A stretch of 46,582 nt of DNA from Burkholderiales bacterium (GTDB lineage: Bacteria > Pseudomonadota > Gammaproteobacteria > Burkholderiales > Usitatibacteraceae), in NCBI GenBank assembly GCA_017853245.1, contig JAFMJY010000005.1, positions 1 to 46,582 of the forward strand, read 5' to 3'. The position numbers and the translations under genes are program-made. This document shows, in pieces, positions 5,436 to 10,279 of the stretch; position 1 is the stretch's first letter, and every line of letters starts with the position of its first letter. A model generated the notes under the pieces. That model was not told the DNA's origin. It ran no database searches and worked only from the letters and a program-made list of their open reading frames with translations.

Positions 5436-5585
5436 GTGAAGGAACTCGACCCTGCCGAAGTGCTGGCCATCGCGGGCGGCTTGCCGCCGGGCGCCCTGCT
5501 CGACGAAGTGCTCTACCGGAACTCGCCCGAGCCCCTGCGTGACCCGCTCGCGATCGCCACTCTCGAATCGCCGATCGCGCCATGA
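5436..5585 (+). CDS. Double-glycine-leader peptide precursor 1 (microcin-like)
   Basis: This is a 49-residue ORF with a GTG start preceded by GAGGAG at 5424-5429. Residues 1-15 read VKELDPAEVLAIAGG. Numbered back from the GG, Leu is at -12, Asp at -11, Glu at -8, Val at -7, Ile at -4 and Gly at -2/-1. This matches the double-glycine consensus and the 15-residue leader length of colicin V-type microcins. The predicted 34-residue core begins LPPGALLDEVLYRNSPEPL and ends SPIAP; it is rich in Leu and Pro and has no Cys. The expected route is export and cleavage by the C39-ABC transporter encoded at 8168-10279. No modification enzyme is encoded nearby. The core matches no family I know, so a bacteriocin or signalling role is inferred from the leader and context. 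Confidence 0.7.
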   Translation: MKELDPAEVLAIAGGLPPGALLDEVLYRNSPEPLRDPLAIATLESPIAP

Positions 5586-5660: not shown

Positions 5661-5822
5661 ATGAAAGAACTGCCCGTGCAGGACCACGACGACGCTGCAG
5701 GCGGCATCACGCCCGACGGCGGCGGTTGCGTCTCGCCCTTCCCCAACCCGCTCGATTACCCGCGGCTGCCGATCGTGCCGGACCCGTTCCCCTCGCCCAA
5801 CGACCCCATCACCCAATTTTGA
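5661..5822 (+). CDS. Double-glycine-leader peptide precursor 2, proline-rich core
   Basis: This is a 53-residue ORF with ATG preceded by AGGAGA at 5650-5655. The leader MKELPVQDHDDAAGG has the same 15-residue length and opening KEL as precursor 1, with Leu at -12 and Asp in the -8 acidic position. The hydrophobic -7 and -4 positions are degenerate (His, Ala). The predicted 38-residue core starts ITPDGGGCVSPFPNPLDYPR. It contains eleven prolines and one cysteine and has a net negative charge by inspection, unlike cationic proline-rich antimicrobial peptides. The stop lies at the edge of the next gene's ribosome-binding site (GAGGAG, 5821-5826). The function is unknown; it may be a second peptide of a multi-component bacteriocin or a signalling peptide. 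Confidence 0.65.
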   Translation: MKELPVQDHDDAAGGITPDGGGCVSPFPNPLDYPRLPIVPDPFPSPNDPITQF

Positions 5823-5835
5823 GGAGCCCTTCGCC

Positions 5836-6042
5836 ATGACTGACACCACCCCGAACTCCGCCCCCCGTTCTTCCGACACGACGGGGCCTCAGCCGCTGGA
5901 TGCCACCACGATCGACGAGGTTGGCGGCGGCCTCTCGTGCAGCCCCGAGGACCTCACCCGGCTCACCGCCTCGCTCAAGGAGTCGTACGAGAACCTCGTG
6001 GACTTCACCTCGCACGTGATCGAGCGCGTGATCGGCAAGTGA
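5836..6042 (+). CDS. Double-glycine-leader peptide precursor 3, amphipathic core
   Basis: This is a 68-residue ORF whose ATG is preceded by GAGGAG overlapping the previous stop. The N-terminal 20 residues are Thr/Ser/Pro-rich, followed by LDATTIDEVGGG. If cleavage follows the last glycine, Leu falls at -12, Asp at -11, Ile at -7, Val at -4 and Gly at -2/-1, again fitting the double-glycine rule within an extended 32-residue leader. The 36-residue core starts LSCSPEDLTRLTASLKESYE and ends VIERVIGK. It has one Cys and a regular hydrophobic spacing that suggests an amphipathic helix. The third-position GC bias matches the neighbours. It could be a mature effector, a partner peptide, or an immunity or carrier protein that happens to carry a leader. 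Confidence 0.65.
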   Translation: MTDTTPNSAPRSSDTTGPQPLDATTIDEVGGGLSCSPEDLTRLTASLKESYENLVDFTSHVIERVIGK

Positions 6043-6106: not shown

Positions 6107-6916
6107 ATGCAAGTGTCCGCTTGGCAGATCGCATTCTTTGTCTTCGCGCTGCAGTTCTTCGCAATGCTCGCCGCCACCACGCTCGCGCCGCGCCTGGGCT
6201 GGCCGGCGGCTGAGCTCGAGTTGCTCGGCCGGCTCATCACCTTTACCACTGCGTCGGCCCTCCTGTTTGGCATTCCCTCAGTGCGGCGCCATTGCGTTCA
6301 ACTGCTGCAAACGCCGGGGCGCGCCAGCTGCGCCAAGATCGCGCTCGCCGTCGCCACCAAGGTCGCTGTGCCGTTCGCGCTGGCGGGGCTCGTGGTGATT
6401 GCCGCCCTCGTGAGCACCGACGAATCCCTGGCCGCGTCGAGGCTGCCTGTGGTGAACCCTGCCGACGCATGGCGCTGGCTGCTCACGCCGCCAGGCCTGG
6501 TCACGACGATGCTGCTCAGTTGGCTCGTCGGGCCCTTCATCGAGGAAGTGGTCTTTCGTGGCCTGCTGCAGCCGGCTCTGGAACGCAGATGGGGTTGGGC
6601 GCTCGGTAGCGTGATCAACGGGCTCATCTTTGCCGCCATGCACCCGACCCACTTCGTTTCGGCCGCCATCGGCTCCATCGTGATGGCCTGTGTGTGGCGG
6701 CACACCCGGTCGCTACGCGATTGCATCGTCGTGCACATGGGATACAACTTGGCGATCTCCTGGCCGTTGATGGGCCAGTTGCTCTTTGCGAGCCCCGATA
6801 GGCCGTTGCTTGAGCTCTCGCAGTGGGTGCCCCACTTCGTCGCCCTCACAGTCGCCGCCGCGGCGCTGCCGGCCTGGGTGTGGGCTGCCATTCGCCGCCC
6901 GGCTTTCCACGCCTAG
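6107..6916 (+). CDS. CPBP-family intramembrane glutamic protease, candidate immunity protein
   Basis: From ATG 6107 the product is 269 residues of mostly membrane helices. All three CPBP/Abi motifs are present: EEVVFR (E146, E147, R151), F175-x3-H179 in FAAMHPTH, and H210-x3-N214 in HMGYN. CPBP proteins are intramembrane proteases; bacterial members in bacteriocin loci act in self-immunity or in maturation of exported peptides. I prefer ATG 6107 because GGAG lies at 6094-6097. An in-frame GTG at 6044, one base after precursor 3, would add a proline-rich tail of 21 residues and has no visible ribosome-binding site. Its position between the precursors and the exporter supports a dedicated role in this system. 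Confidence 0.85.
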   Translation: MQVSAWQIAFFVFALQFFAMLAATTLAPRLGWPAAELELLGRLITFTTASALLFGIPSVRRHCVQLLQTPGRASCAKIALAVATKVAVPFALAGLVVIAALVSTDESLAASRLPVVNPADAWRWLLTPPGLVTTMLLSWLVGPFIEEVVFRGLLQPALERRWGWALGSVINGLIFAAMHPTHFVSAAIGSIVMACVWRHTRSLRDCIVVHMGYNLAISWPLMGQLLFASPDRPLLELSQWVPHFVALTVAAAALPAWVWAAIRRPAFHA

Positions 6917-6920
6917 GCCA

Positions 6921-8171
6921 ATGCCCGTATTCCGCCGCGAAGTGCAGGCTGAGCGGGAACGCGCCGCGCTGGGCTCGATCCTGCTCATTCGGCCGCTCTC
7001 GTTTTCCGCTCTCACCGTCGCCGCAGTGGCCACCGTGAGCGTCGTGTTCGCCTTCCTTGGCACCGCGGAGTACGGGCGCAAGGCGCGGCTGGCTGGCACG
7101 CTCGTCCCCGAGAGCGGTGGCATTCGTATCGACGCGCCCCATGCGGCGCGGCTTGCGGTGCGACACGCCGGGGAAGGCGAGCGCGTGAGCGTCGGCAGCC
7201 CCCTCGCTCGCCTGGAGGACATGCGGGCGACGATGCAAGGCGATGCCGTGGGGGATGCGTCACGGCGGCACGCGGACGCCCGCATGCGTGAATTGCAGCG
7301 AGAGCGCACCGAGACCGAGACGGCGCTCAGTCGAGGCCTCGCGCTGCAGGAATCGAGGCTCTCGAGCCTCGAGGCGGAGCGGAGCCAGCTCGATCGCGAG
7401 GCGGGGCTTCTCGCGCAGCGGGAATCGCTCGCGGAGGCCGACTTCGAACGGGTCCGGCTGCTGGAAGCGCGAGGCATCGTCACGGCAGCACAGCGCGGCC
7501 AGCAGGAGGATCGCCTGCTCGAGCATCGCAGCCGCGGCGAGGCGCTGCGCCGCACGCGCCTGCTCCTCGAGCGGGAAATCGAGCAGGCTCGGCACGCCGC
7601 CGACCAGTCCCGCTCGCAGGCTCGCGCCCGCCTTGCCGCCGTTGACGCGCGCGCCGCCGAAGCGTCGCTCGCAGACATCGAGCGCGAGTCGCGCGCCCAA
7701 TCCCTGGTGCTGGCGCCTGCGGCGGGCATCGTCTCCACGTGGGTGGCGAACGAGGGCCAATCGGTGGGCGCGGGCGAGCCACTCGTCTCGATCCTGCCCG
7801 TGGAGGCACGGCTCGAGGCCCAGTTCCTCGCGCCATCCCACGCCATCGGGCTCCTGCGGCCCGGGCAGCCCGTGCGCCTGCGCTACGGCGCCTATCCGTA
7901 TCAGCGTTACGGCAGCCACGCCGGGCGCGTGCTCGCCATATCCACGCAAGCGCTCGGCCCGCGCGAGCTCGCTTCGGGCGGCCATCCGGCTTCTGCCACT
8001 CCCCTCTACCGGGTGCGCGTGGCGCTCGAGCAGCAGCATGTCCAGATTCACGGTGAGCCAGTGAGCCTTCGCCCGGGGCTCGCCGTCGAAGCCGATGTCG
8101 AGGTCGACCGCCGGCGCCTGGTCGAGTGGGCGCTCGAGCCCCTCTTCGCCGTCACCGGCACGTTGTCGTGA
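6921..8171 (+). CDS. CvaA/HlyD-like periplasmic adaptor of peptide exporter
   Basis: The product is 416 residues with the layout of colicin V secretion protein CvaA. It has a short cytoplasmic N-terminus (FRREVQAERERAALGSILL), one membrane helix at about residues 26-47, a lipoyl half-motif, a long Glu/Arg/Gln-rich coiled coil (about 105-260) and a beta-barrel part. The C-terminus (LRPGLAVEADVEVDRRRLVEWAL) is the conserved end of the family. It would link the inner-membrane ABC exporter to an outer-membrane TolC channel; no TolC gene is in the window. It starts 4 bases after the CPBP stop, and its TGA overlaps the exporter start, so the three genes form one operon. Confidence 0.9.
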   Translation: MPVFRREVQAERERAALGSILLIRPLSFSALTVAAVATVSVVFAFLGTAEYGRKARLAGTLVPESGGIRIDAPHAARLAVRHAGEGERVSVGSPLARLEDMRATMQGDAVGDASRRHADARMRELQRERTETETALSRGLALQESRLSSLEAERSQLDREAGLLAQRESLAEADFERVRLLEARGIVTAAQRGQQEDRLLEHRSRGEALRRTRLLLEREIEQARHAADQSRSQARARLAAVDARAAEASLADIERESRAQSLVLAPAAGIVSTWVANEGQSVGAGEPLVSILPVEARLEAQFLAPSHAIGLLRPGQPVRLRYGAYPYQRYGSHAGRVLAISTQALGPRELASGGHPASATPLYRVRVALEQQHVQIHGEPVSLRPGLAVEADVEVDRRRLVEWALEPLFAVTGTLS

Positions 8172-10279
8172 GCGCGCTGGCAGGCCTTGCCTGGCGGTCG
8201 GCTCGCCGCCTGCCGCTCTGCCTGCAAACGGAAGCGGCCGAGTGCGGGCTCGCGAGCCTCGTGATGATCGCCGGCTGGCACGGCTACCGGGTCGATCTCG
8301 CCACGCTCCGCCAGCGCCATCCGCTGTCGATCAAGGGCGTGACGCTCGCCCATCTGATTCAAGTATCGGGGCGTCTCGGCCTCGCTGGCCGGCCGCTGCG
8401 GCTGGAGCTCGCCGAGCTGCCCCAGCTCGCCACGCCGTGTGTCCTGCATTGGGACCTCAACCACTTCGTGGTGCTGCGTGAAGCGAGCGCCCGCGCCATC
8501 GTCATTCACGACCCGGCCGCCGGCGTGCGACGGCTTTCGATGGAAGAAGCCTCCCGCCACTTCACTGGAATCGCGCTCGAGCTGTCGCCCACGGGGGAAT
8601 TCCGCGAGGCTGACGAACGGGTGCGCGTGCGGCTTCGTGACCTCACCGGGCCGGTGCGCGGCCTGGGGCCCGCCCTCGCGCAGGTTCTCGCGCTGGCCCT
8701 CGCGTTGCAGGCGCTCGCGGTCCTCGCCCCCTTCTACCTGCAGTGGGTGGTCGACGGTGCGGTGGCCTCCGGCGACCGGGAGCTGCTCACGGTGCTCGGC
8801 GTGGGATTCCTGCTGCTCGCTGCAATACAGGTGGCGGTAGGCGCCCTGCGCTCGTGGGTGGTGCTCTACCTCGGCACCACGCTCAACCTGCAGTGGCTCG
8901 CGAACGTCTTCTCGCACCTGCTCAGGCTGCCCGTAGCGTGGTTCGAGAAGCGCCACCTGGGCGACGTCGTCTCGCGCTTTGGCGCCGTCACCACCATCCA
9001 GCGCACGCTCACCTCGAGCTTTGTCGAGGCGGTGATCGACGGGCTGATGGCGGTGGTGACGCTGGCGATGATGCTCGCCTACAGCTTCCCACTCACGCTT
9101 ATCGCGCTCGCTACCGTGTCGGCCTATGGTGTAGCGCGGGCGGCGTTCTACGCGCCACTCAAGCGCGCCACCGGGGAACACATCGTCCACGCCGCCCGCC
9201 AGCAAAGCCACTTCCTCGAGACGGTTCGCGGTGTGCAGTCGATCCGGCTCTTCGGGCGCGAGGACGAGCGCCGGGCTCGGTGGCTGAACCTGGCGGTGGA
9301 CGCCACCAACGGCGACCTGCGCGTACAGAAGCTCTCGCTCGGCTTCCGCTCGGCCAATGGCATCGCCTTTGGCGTCGAGCGCGTGGCGGTGGTGTGGCTG
9401 GGCGCCATCCTCGTACTCGACGCGACCCTCACCACCGGCATGCTCTTCGCATTCCTCGCCTACAAGGAGCAGTTCTCGGCGCGCGTGGCAGGCCTCATCG
9501 ACAAGACGATCGAGTTGAAGATGTTGAAGCTCCAGGGCGAGCGGCTCGCCGACATCGTGCTCACACCCGCAGAGTCTCAGCCGCGCACGCCAGTGGTGAG
9601 CGTCGAGGATGCCTCGCTCGAGGCGCGGAACCTTTCCTTCCGCTACTCCGAGATGGAGCCCTTCGTGCTGCGCGATTGCTCCTTCCGCATCGCGCCGGGC
9701 GAGTCGGTGGCCATCGTTGGCGCGTCGGGTTGCGGCAAGACGACGCTCGTGAAGCTCCTGCTGGGGCTCATCCCGCCCACGGATGGGCAGGTGCTGGTCG
9801 GTGGCGTCGACGTGCAGAAGATGGGATTGGAGGCTTACCGGCAGCTCGTGGGTACGGTGATGCAGGACGACCCGCTGTTCGCGGGCTCGATTGAGGACAA
9901 CGTGAGCTTCTTCGATCCCTCGCCCAGCCAGGAAGCGATCGAGCGGTGCACGCGGCTTGCTGCCGTGCACGACGACATCGCCGCCATGCCGATGGGCTAT
10001 CACACGCTGATCGGCGACATGGGCACCGCGCTCTCCGGGGGCCAGCGGCAGCGGCTGCTGCTCGCGCGAGCGCTCTACAAGCAGCCGCGGATTCTCTTTC
10101 TCGATGAAGCCACCAGCGCCCTCGACGTGCAGCGGGAGCGGCTGGTGAACGAGGCGATCCGGGGACTCAAGCTCACCCGCATCCTGATCGCGCACCGGCC
10201 CGAGACCATCGCCTCCGCGAGCCGCGTGATCGTGCTGCAGGGCGGGCGCGTGGCGCAGGACCTGCGGCAAGCCGCCTGA
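8168..10279 (+). CDS. CvaB-like peptidase-containing ABC exporter (C39 family)
   Basis: The product is 703 residues in three parts. The N-terminal C39 cysteine peptidase has oxyanion Gln20 and catalytic Cys26 in QTEAAECGLA, His99 in NHFVVL and Asp115 in IHDPA, so the leader-cleaving triad is intact. A membrane domain follows (about 150-440). The ATPase domain has Walker A GASGCGKTT (about 517), LSGGQRQR (about 622), ILFLDEATSALD (about 641) and IAHRPET (about 674). The family cleaves double-glycine leaders and exports the core in one step. GTG 8168 overlaps the adaptor stop (GTGA). The three GG-leader ORFs at 5436-6042 are the obvious substrates. The resemblance to colicin V CvaB extends over the whole length. 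Confidence 0.93.
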   Translation: MSALAGLAWRSARRLPLCLQTEAAECGLASLVMIAGWHGYRVDLATLRQRHPLSIKGVTLAHLIQVSGRLGLAGRPLRLELAELPQLATPCVLHWDLNHFVVLREASARAIVIHDPAAGVRRLSMEEASRHFTGIALELSPTGEFREADERVRVRLRDLTGPVRGLGPALAQVLALALALQALAVLAPFYLQWVVDGAVASGDRELLTVLGVGFLLLAAIQVAVGALRSWVVLYLGTTLNLQWLANVFSHLLRLPVAWFEKRHLGDVVSRFGAVTTIQRTLTSSFVEAVIDGLMAVVTLAMMLAYSFPLTLIALATVSAYGVARAAFYAPLKRATGEHIVHAARQQSHFLETVRGVQSIRLFGREDERRARWLNLAVDATNGDLRVQKLSLGFRSANGIAFGVERVAVVWLGAILVLDATLTTGMLFAFLAYKEQFSARVAGLIDKTIELKMLKLQGERLADIVLTPAESQPRTPVVSVEDASLEARNLSFRYSEMEPFVLRDCSFRIAPGESVAIVGASGCGKTTLVKLLLGLIPPTDGQVLVGGVDVQKMGLEAYRQLVGTVMQDDPLFAGSIEDNVSFFDPSPSQEAIERCTRLAAVHDDIAAMPMGYHTLIGDMGTALSGGQRQRLLLARALYKQPRILFLDEATSALDVQRERLVNEAIRGLKLTRILIAHRPETIASASRVIVLQGGRVAQDLRQAA

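Follow-up and report, generated by a model that had tools for sequence, protein, structure and literature searches.

Does the short open reading frame at positions 5661 to 5822 of the DNA studied here, a stretch of 46,582 nucleotides referred to throughout as the window, encode a genuine exported peptide, and what might an acidic, proline-rich chain do behind a leader that ends in GG? The frame, P2, is the middle one of three precursors (P1, P2, and P3) that are followed by a CPBP membrane protein, a HlyD-type adaptor, and a C39-ABC exporter, with a glycosyltransferase and an O-antigen ligase-like gene upstream of the cassette:

5436..5585, + strand: P1 precursor, 49 aa from a GTG start, with a canonical GG leader and a slowly changing core LPPGALLDEVLYRN...; counterparts in 10 other genomes and on contig L086
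5661..5822, + strand: P2 precursor ORF; leader 5661-5705, predicted core 5706-5819, then stop (translation, 13 copies aligned, coding tests)
5836..6042, + strand: P3 precursor of 68 aa, with a GG(G) leader directly followed by a Cys and a C-terminal helix containing YENLVDFTSHVIERV (14-copy alignment, AlphaFold)
6107..6916, + strand: CPBP (Rce1-like) membrane protein, 269 aa; Pfam PF02517 at E 2.3e-19; motifs EEVVFR, FAAMH, and HMGYN
6921..8171, + strand: HlyD-type periplasmic adaptor; Pfam HlyD_3 at E 3.7e-16, TIGR01843 below its cutoff
8168..10279, + strand: C39 peptidase-ABC exporter; Pfam Peptidase_C39, ABC_membrane, and ABC_tran; Cys, His, and Asp motifs intact

The precursors and their neighbors

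P2 is translated as the leader MKELPVQDHDDAAGG followed by the core ITPDGGGCVSPFPNPLDYPRLPIVPDPFPSPNDPITQF and a stop, with AGGAG immediately 5′ of the ATG. The leader has 15 residues and ends in GG, and the core behind it has 38 residues, including 11 Pro, a single Cys, and a GGG stretch, with a net charge of -3; translation thus confirms the composition that a sequence-only reading had assigned to it (eleven Pro in 38 residues, one Cys, GGG, negative charge). The GGG is not a general feature, as the homologues mostly carry a mix of D, G, and N ahead of the Cys. AlphaFold predicts no fold for P2 (pTM 0.15), as expected of an extended Pro-rich chain, and Pfam, NCBIfam, and PHROGs contain no family that matches P1 or P2 at E up to 1.

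When V, I, L, M, and F are counted as hydrophobic, the only hydrophobic residue of the window P2 leader at positions -4, -7, and -12 is L at -12, with A at -4 and H at -7; across the 13 copies of P2 these positions are hydrophobic in 12 (-4), 12 (-12), and 3 (-7). The P1 leader has such residues at -4 and -12 in 11/11 copies and at -7 in 10/11, counts that, like the P1 pN/pS value below, do not include L086, where P1 is also GTG-started. P1 fits the Gram-negative GG motif as quoted in the available part of PMC9200625, apart from its GTG start and a V where the motif has I/L behind Glu. For P3, AlphaFold gives a helix over residues 37-67, with pLDDT of 82-92 in blocks from residue 41, and the hydrophobic moment exceeds that of shuffles at p < 0.05 in 7 of 12 copies, so that an amphipathic helix is only partly supported. 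Searches of Pfam, NCBIfam, and PHROGs give only a chance-level Pfam match for P3 (E 0.29), and neither its profile against PDB sequences nor P3 against plasmids gives any match.

The exporter lies 2.3 kb downstream of P2 on the same strand, and its C39 domain is recognized at E 5.7e-30; its start, GTG at 8168, was inferred from the 4-base overlap with the HlyD gene, the ORF list placing it at 8126. The Cys, His, and Asp motifs of C39 are intact in all 10 exporters examined, TolC-type OEP domains give 15 matches elsewhere in the genome, and the window CPBP protein carries the EExxxR, FxxxH, and HxxxN motifs. A scan for sigma-70 promoters found none, and the single terminator found by a second scan lies on the other strand, shuffles giving 0.6. 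Compared with members of the genus, the window HlyD is 44-47% identical and the adjoining exporter 78-80%, an odd contrast within one machine.

P2 is a protein-coding gene

P2 is a genuine coding gene. In the six frames of the window, 15 ATG starts open a frame of 40-90 aa with a suitably placed GG, and only in P2 does Pro make up at least 25% of the core, which is also acidic; 40 order-2 Markov simulations of the window yield on average 41.3 GG frames, 0.2 that are Pro-rich, and 0.0 that are both Pro-rich and acidic. There are 57,195 stop-free stretches of 38 residues, 131 of them with at least 11 Pro, and the P2 core belongs to the kind, represented by 5 of these 131, that also has a charge of -3 or below.

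In all 13 copies of P2 a purine-rich ribosome site precedes the ATG, and the leader ends in GG; it is 15 residues long in 12 of them. The GC content of the cores is 0.67, 0.54, and 0.90 at codon positions 1-3, near the values of neighboring genes, and Pro is encoded by CCC or CCG in 148 of 149 cases, whereas all four Pro codons occur in the exporter when it is read in either wrong frame. While individual residues vary, every core is 22-34% Pro and net acidic, with charges of -1 to -7 and a mean of 1.08 Lys plus Arg. The observed means (Pro fraction 0.281, charge -4.1) lie beyond anything reached in 300 simulated drifts of the cores to 45% identity, where the means are 0.175 and +0.5 and the extremes 0.207 and -1.5. 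Between the closely related genomes G001 and G007, the P2 leader has two synonymous differences and no nonsynonymous ones over 36 sites, and the core has 28 nonsynonymous differences over 81 sites (leader vs core, Fisher p 9e-6).

Two weak tests, together with the 68% GC content of the window, could be taken to mean that the frame is open by chance in GC-rich intergenic DNA: the first 14 codons show an identity of 0.56 in frame vs 0.53 and 0.48 out of frame, and frame-blind gap lengths are distributed modulo three as 267:187:160, just 267 of 614 being multiples of three, although this gap test says little, as P1 and P3 also lack an excess of such multiples. Stops interrupt the +1 frame in 12/12 copies and the +2 frame in only 2/12; G010, with its longer leader, was left out of the frame tests, and the G012/G012b pair out of the gap and all-pairs pN/pS analyses. 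A chance frame is nevertheless highly improbable, given that 13 copies keep start, ribosome site, leader, and composition, that Pro codon choice is so narrow and the composition is lost under simulated drift, and that the close pair combines an unchanged leader protein with so altered a core. On this point the sequence-only reading, which had made its case depend on protein-coding selection on this frame, was not refuted: leader conservation, codon usage, and the kept composition favor coding, and its proposal of a GG-leader precursor with an acidic Pro-rich core is supported.

Distribution and modularity

Two related genera of betaproteobacteria share the gene order P1-P2-P3-CPBP, which was found at 12 loci, namely in the window genome, in G001, G002, G004, G005, G006, G007, G010, G012, G014, and G020, and on contig L086. 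In all 12, P2 lies immediately 5′ of P3 and CPBP comes after P3; CPBP was recognized by similarity and motifs in 10 loci and also in G020 and L086, in the latter by Pfam as well. The exporter shares a contig with the four genes in 9 loci, and in the other three the contig breaks in or before HlyD (G004), the exporter is on a different contig (G020), or the contig ends after CPBP (L086). Close counterparts of the exporter (69-81% identity) come from the genus of the window genome and from a second genus of its family, which we take to be, perhaps, Usitatibacteraceae. G012 is Betaproteobacteria bacterium GR16-43, a complete genome (CP019169.1), and the other named records are MAGs. L086 is labeled Vicinamibacteria, yet it has the cassette, with upstream sequence that by eye is as in G010 and G014; it may be mis-binned.

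A profile built from nine P2 copies finds matches at E up to 0.1 in 12 of 28 genomes of the family, nine of which supplied the profile; the three non-contributors are G004 (strong), G016 (doubtful at 0.03), and G020, whose true P2 (E 0.0013) ranks behind a better match in another frame. In G003 there is no P2 match, and its exporter match covers query residues 351-715 only. Of 399 genomes of the order searched with a 13-copy profile, the first 16 candidates per genome being scored, six have P2, and these belong to the family of the cassette; since all six had contributed to the profile, the news is the absence of P2 elsewhere in the order. The P3 profile is strong in the same 6 of 399 genomes and reaches two further genomes only at E 0.007-0.009. 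In the genomes searched, the cassette is restricted to one family. Three other Pro-rich GG peptides (A6) used as query gave 7 matches in 6 of 399 genomes at E 0.001-0.007, 4 of the 7 inside frames of more than 400 aa, and these were treated as chance.

The cassette also appears in extended forms. In G002 (L039, 5934-7004), a second P3-like precursor lies directly before a second CPBP gene (EEFYFR; Pfam E 1.3e-18), the pair sitting between the first CPBP and HlyD, and this side-by-side occurrence ties CPBP to a peptide. In G012 (L079, minus strand, 1501-1659), a second P2-like peptide, acidic, Pro-rich, and free of Cys, lies between CPBP and HlyD. G016 (G016:C393; L093, minus strand, 63-2166) has five GG peptides with a different type of leader, three of them Pro-rich, around a protein that has a sub-threshold CPBP match (E 0.0012) and lacks EExxxR. 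Near related exporters, Pro-rich GG peptides are present in G034 (12 Pro in 43 residues), G043 (11 in 54), and G099 (6 in 31, opposite strand), and other such loci carry different cargo. The Pro-rich core of the G043 peptide (L049, 6371-6598) ends in VALNPQPLPPKSLAAFEIQM.

Cysteines of P2 and P3

The sequence-only reading had suggested that the single Cys of P2 could be joined to that of P3. P3 has one Cys right behind GG in all 12 main copies, whereas P2 has its single Cys in 10 of 13 copies, near the start of the core in eight and toward the C-terminus in G002 and L086, and lacks it in G014, G020, and the second P2 of G012. Because G014 and G020 keep the P3 Cys while their P2 has none, the suggestion does not hold as a general mechanism, and with Cys in just 10 of 13 copies a P2-P3 disulfide cannot be obligatory. 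Dimers of P3, or an optional P2-P3 disulfide in the window strain, are possible.

Variation between close relatives

In G001 and G007 the glycosyltransferase, HlyD, and exporter proteins are 94-98% identical, P1 96%, and CPBP 88%, against just 53% for the P2 core and 69% for the P3 core. At the DNA level, a stretch of about 290 bases (L036, 7340-7632) reaches an identity of only 0.55-0.73 in 60-column windows; its shoulders are at 0.83 and 0.80, and the remaining windows, a ragged last one apart, at 0.81-1.00. This divergent block, observed in one pair of genomes, starts within the P2 core, spans P3, and ends in the spacer behind P3. Synonymous divergence is 1.0-1.75 in P3 vs 0.10-0.29 in the glycosyltransferase, CPBP, HlyD, and exporter genes, and omega for P3 is 0.13-0.34, values on which positive selection of P3 by point mutation was rejected. 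The simplest reading for this one pair of draft genomes is that the block was imported by recombination, with P3 probably under purifying selection. P1 is nearly without synonymous change in the same comparison (1 of 43.6 sites; p 0.02 against the glycosyltransferase), which perhaps reflects recent exchange or overlapping constraint.

Omega for the P2 core is 1.03 (G001/G007), 1.19 (G012/G014), and 0.61 (G001/G004), and pN/pS over all pairs is 0.66 for the P2 leader, 0.93 for the P2 core, 0.68 for the P1 core, and 0.67 for the P3 core. Variability of this kind between near-identical bacteria tends to match weapons or recognition peptides; omega near 1 in two pairs and 0.61 in the third also fits weak constraint.

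Comparison with known peptide systems

Known proline-rich antimicrobial peptides are cationic and have their site of action within the cell. P2 resembles them in its high proline content and extended form and differs in being acidic and in lying behind a GG leader, net positive charge being absent from 13/13 cores. Acidic Pro-rich cores are likewise atypical for bacteriocins. In the portions of the literature that searches made available, no description of acidic Pro-rich GG peptides was found.

The excerpts available of two surveys describe the class II microcin cassette as a precursor, an immunity protein, a C39 exporter, a membrane-fusion protein, and TolC (PMC9746304, PMC11494933), and one of them gives 12-26% glycine and hydrophobic leader residues at -4, -7, and -12 as traits of the class (PMC11494933). 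As far as these excerpts go, the locus is similar in its 15-residue GG leader, in its C39 exporter with the catalytic Cys, His, and Asp and accompanying membrane-fusion protein or adaptor (PMC9746304), in the TolC-type proteins of the genome, in the variable core, and in the membrane protein beside the peptides. It departs from the class in having three precursors, a P2 core that is acidic and 29% Pro, and a CPBP protein of 269 aa as candidate immunity protein; against the ranges excerpted from PMC11494933, the window P2 has too little glycine (9.4%; 4.9-18.8% across the 13 copies) and a leader that is hydrophobic at -12 but at neither -4 nor -7. P2 does have the short GG/GA leader near a C39 exporter that characterizes C39-exported GG peptides.

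Two-peptide (class IIb) bacteriocins provide a further comparison, for which the position of P2 directly before P3 in 12/12 loci is at most suggestive. The accessible part of PMC4860687 includes CAAX proteases among the putative immunity genes of class IIb loci such as pneumococcal blp, and the likeness, which is one of description and not of sequence, extends to several GG peptides, a dedicated exporter, CAAX-type membrane proteins, and allelic variation of the peptides. The present locus differs from blp, as described there, in its HlyD adaptor, in the absence of a recognized regulator, and in its Pro-rich acidic peptide. We therefore class P2 among the GG-leader cargo peptides, as one that putatively works like a bacteriocin component.

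Possible roles of P2

The explanation that we favor, and to which we give an even chance, is that P2 is the GG-leader precursor of a variable cargo of a dedicated multi-peptide bacteriocin-like cassette, which would act with P3 while CPBP protects the producer. The C39 domain of the ABC protein would cleave the precursors behind GG, and the P2 core, as an acidic, extended, Pro-rich chain, would leave the cell together with P1 and P3 through the ABC protein, HlyD, and a TolC-type outer membrane protein encoded elsewhere. Outside the cell, P2 and the helical, Cys-bearing P3 would jointly antagonize close relatives, P3 perhaps engaging the membrane via its helix and P2 supplying target or partner specificity, with P1 as a presumed accessory. 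This explanation is supported by the P1-P2-P3-CPBP order in 12 loci, 9 with the exporter on the same contig; by the composition kept in 13/13 P2 cores of varying residues; by the intact C39 motifs (10/10) and the OEP domains of the genome; by the unchanged P2 leader beside a divergent core and P3 in G001/G007; and by the strong P2 and P3 matches in the same 6 of 399 genomes. It is weakened by the window leader, with H at -7 and A at -4 (-7 being hydrophobic in only 3/13 copies), by an exchanged block known from one pair of draft genomes, by a nearly invariant P1 without an assigned role, and by CPBP, which may instead be a processing protease, in line with what is reported for SilX (PMC9298176).

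A bolder form of the bacteriocin-like explanation is put forward tentatively. Here the cassette would be a three-peptide Gram-negative weapon in which P2 and P3 form a strain-specific pair, swapped as a block behind a near-constant P1, P2 leader, and exporter, and specificity would lie in the composition and pattern of P2 and not in conserved residues.

It is somewhat unlikely that P2, with P1 and P3, is instead an exported signal for kin or quorum recognition, in which case the variable cores would be pherotypes and CPBP would process the peptides as a protease. Signals, too, make use of GG leaders and C39 exporters, pherotype switching would likewise fit the block exchange, and P1 has the most canonical leader and is the most conserved sequence in the close pair. 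The CAAX protease SilX is reported, in the available text of PMC9298176, to matter for the processing and production of a signal peptide and not for immunity. Against a signal, no sensor or regulator is present among the ten classified proteins (P1 to the exporter and two genes on each side).

We consider it unlikely that P2 serves as a helper, its extended acidic chain, constrained in composition only, holding the helical P3 in a soluble or inactive state while it is exported. Such a role would suit a core with pN/pS and omega values around or below 1 (0.93 over all pairs; 1.03, 1.19, and 0.61) that yet keeps its Pro and acidity, the lack of a fold in AlphaFold, and the place of P2 right before P3 in 12/12 loci; P2 has, however, a leader and a ribosome site to itself, and in G012 the second P2 lacks an adjoining second P3.

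Outlook

The term Burkholder is absent from the main text of the two class II microcin surveys (PMC9746304 and PMC11494933) in a term search, so the exported peptides of these bacteria look little explored. P2 would be an exported peptide, one that seems to be constrained in composition rather than in residues. G001 and G007 are near-identical strains set apart mainly by the P2 core and P3 and offer a natural comparison in which specificity is directly testable. If the bacteriocin-like explanation is true, the locus shows that acidic Pro-rich peptides can serve as C39 cargo.
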